From Hydrogenophilales bacterium (GTDB taxonomy: Bacteria; Pseudomonadota; Gammaproteobacteria; Burkholderiales; Thiobacillaceae), in NCBI GenBank assembly GCA_024636675.1, contig JAGXGM010000037.1, positions 1 through 64,000 on the forward strand: a stretch of DNA of 64,000 nt, read 5' to 3'. Both the position numbers and the translations under genes were made by a program. Of this stretch, positions 27,606-28,445 are shown piece after piece. Numbering within the stretch: position 1 is the first letter of the stretch; each line of letters starts with the position of its first letter. The notes beneath the pieces were generated by a model. That model was not told the origin of the DNA. It was given only the letters and a program-made list of their open reading frames with translations, and searched no databases.

Positions 27606-27993
27606 CTATTTGGCCGCGGAGCGCCGCCTCACCGTTTCGCCGGCCACGACGAAGACGCCATTGCCGCGATGGTGCAACGTCTGCGGTTGCCTGATCGCGG
27701 TGTCGACCCACGCCTTCACCACCTCGAGGATGAAGAAATTGTAGCGATTGACCGACCGGGTGTCGGCCACCCGGCATTTCGAGGCTGGCAGAGCATTCGG
27801 CAATCAGCGGCGGTTTCACCTCCGCGGCGGCAACCGGCGTGAGGCCGTATCGGGCAAACTTTTCGCCGGTGCGGCCGGAGCAGTTGCCAATGCCCACCAC
27901 CTGCTTCGACAGTTCCAGCGTCGGGATATTGATCACGCATTCCCGGGTCCACCTCAGCGTGTCGAACGAGGCATTGCGGGCCGCACCAGGCAA
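27606..27993 (-). pseudogene. Flavin reductase-like (FMN-binding split-barrel) pseudogene
   Basis: DTLRWTRECVINIPTLELSKQVVGIGNCSGRTGEKFARYGLTPV...PPLIAECSASLE in one frame, then CRVADTRSVNRYNFFILEVVKAWVD...LHHRGNGVFVVAGETVRR in the next; frameshift at TTT 27777-27779; N-terminus missing. Confidence 0.75.
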
Positions 27994-28073
27994 TGACTCT
28001 TGTATCCGGAGGCAGCTGGCCTATTCTGAATCTATCCTGAATGTGTTAGCAAATGCCTTTGAAGGAGATTGCC

Positions 28074-28445
28074 ATGGAGCATGTATCAGCCGACATCAAC
28101 AAGCTCATCCGGGAACCGGCGGCGGACCCCGGCTTTCCCAATGCCCCGCTCAACTGGACCCGGGACGATGCTGAAAAAATTGCGCACGAGGAAGGCCTTG
28201 AGCTCACAGAAGATCATTGGGAAACCATTCGCGCCCTGCAAAACTATTACGCCCACCATGAAGACGAAACCATCATCAACCTGCGCGAATTGCACGACGC
28301 CCTGGATGAGCGCTTTCACCAAAAAGGCGGCCTGAAATATCTATACACCTTGTTTCCGGGCGGACCCATTGCCCAGAGTTGCCGTCTGGCCGGGCTGAAG
28401 GCACCGTTCATCGCCACCGACCCCAGCTTTGGCAGTGTGGCTTAG
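28074..28445 (+). CDS. DsrC/TusE family sulfur-transfer protein, variant C-terminus
   Basis: NWTRDDAEKIAHEEGLELTEDHWETIRALQNYY, KYLYTLFPGGPIAQSCRLAGLK; SD AAGGAGA upstream of ATG 28074. Confidence 0.88.
   Translation: MEHVSADINKLIREPAADPGFPNAPLNWTRDDAEKIAHEEGLELTEDHWETIRALQNYYAHHEDETIINLRELHDALDERFHQKGGLKYLYTLFPGGPIAQSCRLAGLKAPFIATDPSFGSVA

Follow-up and report, generated by a model that had tools for sequence, protein, structure and literature searches.

The gene at 28074-28445 of the window (the whole stretch of DNA analysed here, 64,000 nucleotides) is an intact, typical example of DsrC copies in which the C-terminal tail has been replaced. Dissimilatory sulfur metabolism relies on DsrC as its central sulfur and redox carrier. 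The two cysteines in the C-terminal arm of DsrC (CysA and CysB) serve as a marker of function. The window protein has CysB and lacks CysA, and it groups with a clade of CysA-less proteins, here called FG-tail DsrC, that follows dsrAB. We put at about one in two the probability that FG-tail DsrC is a non-transferring regulatory or docking/adaptor paralogue tied to reverse-Dsr sulfur oxidation. Judged from sequence, this reading is the best supported because docking would be possible without CysA and because the clade is tied to dsrAB.

The window protein has a DsrC fold and a new C-terminal tail

The start of the gene was assigned to 28074, and not to an in-frame ATG at 28053, because a Shine-Dalgarno sequence precedes the former. 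The features are as follows.

28062..28067, + strand: Shine-Dalgarno sequence AAGGAG, 6 bases upstream of the ATG (from the sequence; orthologues have it at the same distance from the start)
28074..28445, + strand: CDS of the FG-tail DsrC-like protein, 123 aa, stop included (open reading frame; PF04358 and TIGR03342 matches; orthologues with the same start and length)
28341..28376, + strand: LYTLFPGGPIAQ codons, retained DsrC-family signature segment and putative docking surface (invariant residues; common to canonical DsrC)
28380..28382, + strand: codon of Cys103, the CysB position (Cys in 30/30 genus sequences, 62/65 of the subgroup and 36/58 of the rest of the clade)
28407..28442, + strand: codons of the replacement tail FIATDPSFGSVA, residues 112-123, no CysA (kept in 30/30 genus sequences; FG[ST] in 28/29 of a class sample; 115-123 disordered in the model)

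The protein matched PF04358 with 75.7 bits (cut-off, 24.9) and TIGR03342 with 70.1 bits (cut-off, 53.5), and it fell below the threshold of the TusE equivalog NF008562 (56.7 bits vs a cut-off of 191). Its C terminus is ...LYTLFPGGPIAQSCRLAGLKAPFIATDPSFGSVA, with a cysteine at residue 103 and none afterwards. This bears out the initial annotation, which had described a DsrC-family protein with CysB and without CysA at this position. That annotation had also held the C-terminal arm to be replaced or extended. The end of the protein, LFPGGPIAQSCRLAGLKAPFIATDPSFGSVA, indeed has ...DPSFGSVA instead of the terminal Gly-Cys-Val/Ile with CysA and is longer, and the tail was kept in all 29 genus orthologues read.

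An AlphaFold2 model of the window protein showed a DsrC fold (mean pLDDT, 76.6) with residues 115-123 disordered. The best match among solved structures was DsrC of A. vinosum (1yx3; TM 0.58/0.63, E 1.9e-4), followed by a DsrC-family sulfurtransferase of Acinetobacter. All confident matches were to the DsrC family, and a DNA-bound zinc-uptake regulator appeared only at E >2. Profile matches and model together indicate that the protein is a member of the DsrC/TusE/DsvC superfamily with the DsrC fold. As far as the model goes, the flexible arm is kept and the known arm chemistry is removed.

The arm and tail are conserved across the genus

The genus set comprised 35 other genomes, and 33 of them had orthologues at 65 to 89% identity. 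These were found with the whole protein as the query, so conservation of the tail in this set was not selected by the tail motif. The 29 full-length orthologues that we read had 67 to 89% identity and constant length. Cys103, Asp116, Phe119-Gly120 and Ala123 were invariant in all 30 sequences (the window gene plus these 29). Close orthologues also were present in the genomes of T. denitrificans RG and T. thioparus DSM 505. Synonymous sites vary freely among the genus sequences (pS 0.56). In the same set dN/dS was 0.17 for the gene, 0.04 for arm residues 99-111 and 0.17 for tail residues 112-123, which points to purifying selection on both arm and tail. A frameshift, which the initial annotation had named as a possible source of the altered tail, is rejected, as is a pseudogene, on the strength of the 29 orthologues with the same tail and length and of the dN/dS.

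A 76% orthologue also was found on a contig titled Rhizobium sp. (L108, JAIBEL010000066.1). This contig equals contig C62 of genome G005, which is of the same genus as the window, and is probably a misnamed bin.

FG-tail proteins form a distinct clade

In a tree calculated without the tail columns, a single branch (support 99/92; present in 100% of 200 bootstrap trees) set 54 FG-tail proteins apart from 24 rows comprising DsrC, TusE, RAWSTG, GKGGY and others. The tree was built from 80 columns, with many inner forks unresolved and one paralogue of the source genome (C73a) on a long branch. The tree indicates that FG-tail proteins are a distinct clade and not a convergence of tails. It also speaks to the concern that all close homologues of the window protein might be ordinary DsrC, since they group apart from it.

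CysA was present in 0 of 123 distinct FG-tail proteins. At the CysB position, Ser, Thr, Met or Asn stood in place of Cys in 3 of the 65 members of the window's 'RALQ' subgroup and in 22 of the 58 remaining members. The FG[ST] tail was nearly constant in the class sample (28/29, with a mild bias from the profile). Because CysA is absent, CysB replaceable and the tail kept, the clade is marked by its new tail and not by the CysB that the initial annotation had pointed out. The constant parts of the clade are the tail and the DsrC signature segment. Leu90, Tyr91, Phe94, Pro95, Gly97, Pro98 and Gln101 were invariant in a 59-row FG-tail alignment, in which conservation of the tail is partly by construction, its loci having been picked by the tail motif.

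Nor is the window gene the single oddity that it was first taken to be, as it belongs to a large clade and is one of five genes in its own genome whose tails are related. The source genome (2.54 Mb, 81% complete, 90 contigs) contains ten PF04358 genes, and 6 to 12 were found per genome across the genus. An [FM]G[ST] tail ends five of the ten, namely, the window gene (on contig C68), C73a, C73b, C59 and C35. Another, C66, is TusE-like, with a TGCV tail and no CysB; two (contigs C56 and C40) end in ...QACKIAGMRRPRAWSTG, a tail also found in relatives; the C5 paralogue, which adjoins dsrA, ends in ...QGCRVAGLPKPFGKGGY; and C53 fits none of the tail types. Genes with the ...QACKIAGMRRPRAWSTG tail (L010 4215-4526, +; L011 6884-7183, +) formed one clade in the tree. 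Canonical DsrC (...QACKIAGLPKPTGC[IV]) was found in most relatives and is missing from the source assembly. Its absence is best explained by an assembly gap because contig C5, which has the 5' part of dsrA, ends inside that gene.

Some other paralogues lie near sulfur genes. A DsrC-like gene ending in ...PFGKGGY, with CysB and without CysA, is located at L012 6827-7159 (-), divergent upstream of dsrA (from 8482, +) and beside a rhodanese-like gene; in relatives, genes of this type also are found some 5 kb away from canonical dsrC. By reading of translations, the C35 paralogue, in which CysB is replaced by Ser, is about 1 kb from SoxCD-type molybdopterin sulfite dehydrogenase-like genes and a cytochrome (L013 3542-5261, -).

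FG-tail genes occur mostly in genomes with dsr genes

How widespread the tail is had been left as a point to check. When 84,980 prokaryote genomes were scanned for the tail motif with a full-length query and tail-only rows, 70 matches were obtained. Of these, 58 were DsrC relatives from beta- and gammaproteobacteria, mostly known sulfur oxidisers (Thiobacillus, Sulfuricella, Sedimenticola, Thiodiazotropha, Thiolapillus, a Solemya symbiont, Chromatiaceae, Thiohalobacter and similar). All 29 named hosts tested were dsr positive, by dsrA or, in one fragmented genome (G087), by dsrB and the ends of dsrA.

An even class sample of 369 genomes yielded about 60 with matches running through the tail; matches of DsrC and TusE ended near model position 104-106. 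Among the sampled tail carriers, 46 of 50 had dsrA or dsrB (45 with dsrA and one with a dsrB fragment adjoining dsrC), and the remaining four were genomes of 72 to 91% completeness. By contrast, dsrA was absent from all 30 genomes whose one DsrC-family copy is TusE-like (Fisher p = 4e-17 vs 45/50 carriers); this comparison covers tail carriers and genomes that were picked for one DsrC-family copy and are thus without dsrC by construction. A phylum sample contained a few tail carriers beyond the class (L243 and L248 were read). A DNA pattern for the tail, applied to 274 class genomes, matched in 43, several with a stop or another residue, and was too unspecific.

A viral origin was considered and rejected: IMG/VR scans found no FG-tail relatives in viral contigs, and whatever matched among phage and plasmid records was of the TusE type. 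These matches included a tusE-like match in a 3.2-kb 'Salmonella phage' record (OR851037.1 1357-1629) and matches in 'plasmid' records, some larger than 4 Mb (NZ_OL790811.1 and similar). Such records are probably misfiled host DNA.

FG-tail genes have no conserved sulfur neighbours

No dsr, tus or rhodanese gene was seen next to the window gene, in the window or in syntenic relatives, in agreement with its initial description as an orphan. Across the genus the gene is flanked by a leuCDB-asd/MFS region on one side and by a GGDEF-MinD-HDOD cluster on the other; a flavin reductase, often joined by a dodecin, lies close by. Other genera have unrelated housekeeping genes in these places; FG-tail genes were found beside polA, ispF/ispD/eno, trmB/thiG/thiS or leuCDB/asd (names by reading translations). 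We also looked for an operon partner, but clustering of the neighbours of 42 named and 20 class-sample loci gave none common across genera. As no sulfur gene is a conserved neighbour, the orphan status itself is conserved. A gene that is single and freely placed is as expected of a trans-acting factor.

The flavin reductase of the window (27609-27984, -) is broken. It consists of two pieces that are read in different frames and join near 27778, and it lacks about 53 residues at its start; relatives carry an intact 178-aa flavin reductase at this position. In the genus, FG-tail dsrC-like genes at two different paralogue loci have a dodecin-like 66-aa gene in their vicinity (L078 7487-7687, L080 7049-7249 and L013 5877-6077). 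A flavin link of FG-tail genes, through dodecin and the flavin reductase beside the orthologue, is possible; as a general partner it was set aside, being confined to the genus, broken in the window and not extending to other genera.

Proposed function and alternatives

A. vinosum DsrC was persulfurated at no cysteine other than the penultimate Cys111, where it receives sulfur from DsrEFH (PMC3397948). In sulfite reducers, a trisulfide is formed on DsrC by DsrAB and then reduced by DsrMK (PMC10504309). The initial annotation had argued that no intramolecular CysA-CysB disulfide or trisulfide can form in the window protein; given the absent CysA, this holds, and sulfur cannot be taken up at a penultimate cysteine either. 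Without CysA, FG-tail DsrC would be unable to carry the DsrC persulfide or trisulfide. It has the surface and arm of DsrC but no CysA; docking would therefore be possible and the sulfur chemistry would not. We propose that FG-tail DsrC may dock on the partners of DsrC (DsrEFH, DsrAB and DsrMK-type subunits) via the retained surface and flexible arm, and that the docked protein may tune or gate reverse-Dsr sulfur oxidation. The FG tail could be a recognition element in its own right. Beyond sequence, clade, co-occurrence and predicted fold, what is said here of function is what we infer. One observation argues against this reading: CysB is kept in 62 of 65 subgroup members, and passive docking alone would call for no cysteine.

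That cysteine is central to another reading, a mono-thiol sulfur or redox carrier in which Cys103 takes a persulfide or an intermolecular disulfide and the shuttle uses CysB only. The invariance of Cys103 in the genus (30/30), its near invariance in the subgroup and the arm around it, which has the lowest dN/dS, are what such a carrier would predict. However, the tail is kept where the cysteine has become Ser, Thr, Met or Asn. Of the two roles that the initial annotation had put forward, regulatory or alternative sulfur carrier, the second loses ground because the clade as a whole can dispense with CysB. In DsrC, moreover, only the penultimate Cys is loaded by DsrEFH (PMC3397948); we hold a mono-thiol carrier to be rather unlikely. 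We consider unlikely, too, that the protein binds DNA and regulates the transcription of dsr or other sulfur genes, a role for which the conserved cysteines would not be needed. A lone gene tied to dsr suits a regulator, a helix-turn-helix has been noted in A. vinosum DsrC, and RspA, a DsrC-superfamily protein, was reportedly proposed by Venceslau et al. in 2014 to be regulatory independently of its conserved Cys. PMC7787665, with reference to Venceslau et al. 2014, mentions a putative function of DsrC as a regulator of transcription. Against this, the confident fold matches are DsrC family only, the DNA-bound regulator standing at E >2, and conservation is highest in the arm and tail and not in a basic helix. 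A decaying, functionless DsrC copy would account for the loss of CysA and for the other odd copies in the genome (C53 and C73a), but it is at odds with a tail invariant and a length constant in 30/30 sequences, a dN/dS of 0.17 and conservation of the tail clade-wide. The orthologue sequences largely refute it, and we give it hardly any weight.

A more far-reaching form of the preferred reading, that of a non-transferring regulator or adaptor, can be offered only tentatively. FG-tail proteins might make up a large class of non-redox DsrC paralogues that has not yet been set apart, and might serve specifically to regulate reverse dissimilatory sulfite reductase. They would take the place of DsrC on DsrAB, DsrEFH or DsrMK, and the DxSFGSV tail would be a plug or recognition element. 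If this were true, a cell would address different partners with its several DsrC paralogues, each typed by its tail (GCV, FGSV, RAWSTG and GKGGY).

Relation to known DsrC-family proteins

The window protein shares with canonical DsrC (A. vinosum, 1yx3) the fold, the signature LYxLFPxGPxxQ-C-x-x-AGL, the flexible arm and occurrence in the same genomes; co-occurrence with dsrAB extends to the FG-tail genes (the 5' part of dsrA in the source genome, 29/29 named hosts and 46/50 sampled carriers). It differs in that canonical DsrC has a penultimate CysA, with CysB about 11 residues before it, and ends in GC[VI], whereas the FG-tail protein has no CysA, has a DxSFGSV-type tail, falls in a separate clade (99/92) and is encoded outside the dsr cluster. 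TusE, of the sulfur relay for tRNA 2-thiolation, has the PF04358 fold in common with the window protein. TusE keeps CysA, usually without CysB, and the window protein is the reverse; as it has no CysA, TusE-type transfer to MnmA is impossible by the known route. RspA is said to be, like FG-tail DsrC, a member of the DsrC superfamily from sulfur oxidisers that lacks a functional Cys pair; the RAWSTG and GKGGY tail types also would be candidates for it.

A literature search on DsrC paralogues, DsrC-like proteins and RspA, a limited test, gave no description of the FG-tail class. Automatic annotation would name DsrC-family copies 'sulfur relay protein' (TIGR03342). A whole clade of them lacks the relay cysteine but is conserved and follows dsrAB. 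To count its copies as DsrC overstates sulfur-carrier capacity. The clade also makes the role of extra DsrC copies directly testable.

Multiple DsrC-family copies in sulfur oxidisers and viral DsrC without the second Cys are already documented. A. vinosum has several copies beside canonical dsrC (Alvin_0028, 0345, 0732 and 1508; PMC11267869), as does the dsr-containing sulfur oxidiser Endoriftia (PMC7787665). The viral dsrC_1 group resembles FG-tail DsrC in being DsrC-like without the second C-terminal Cys (PMC4164917). In a set of 141 phage sequences, the second Cys motif alone is retained in 112 and the first alone in one (PMC8190135).
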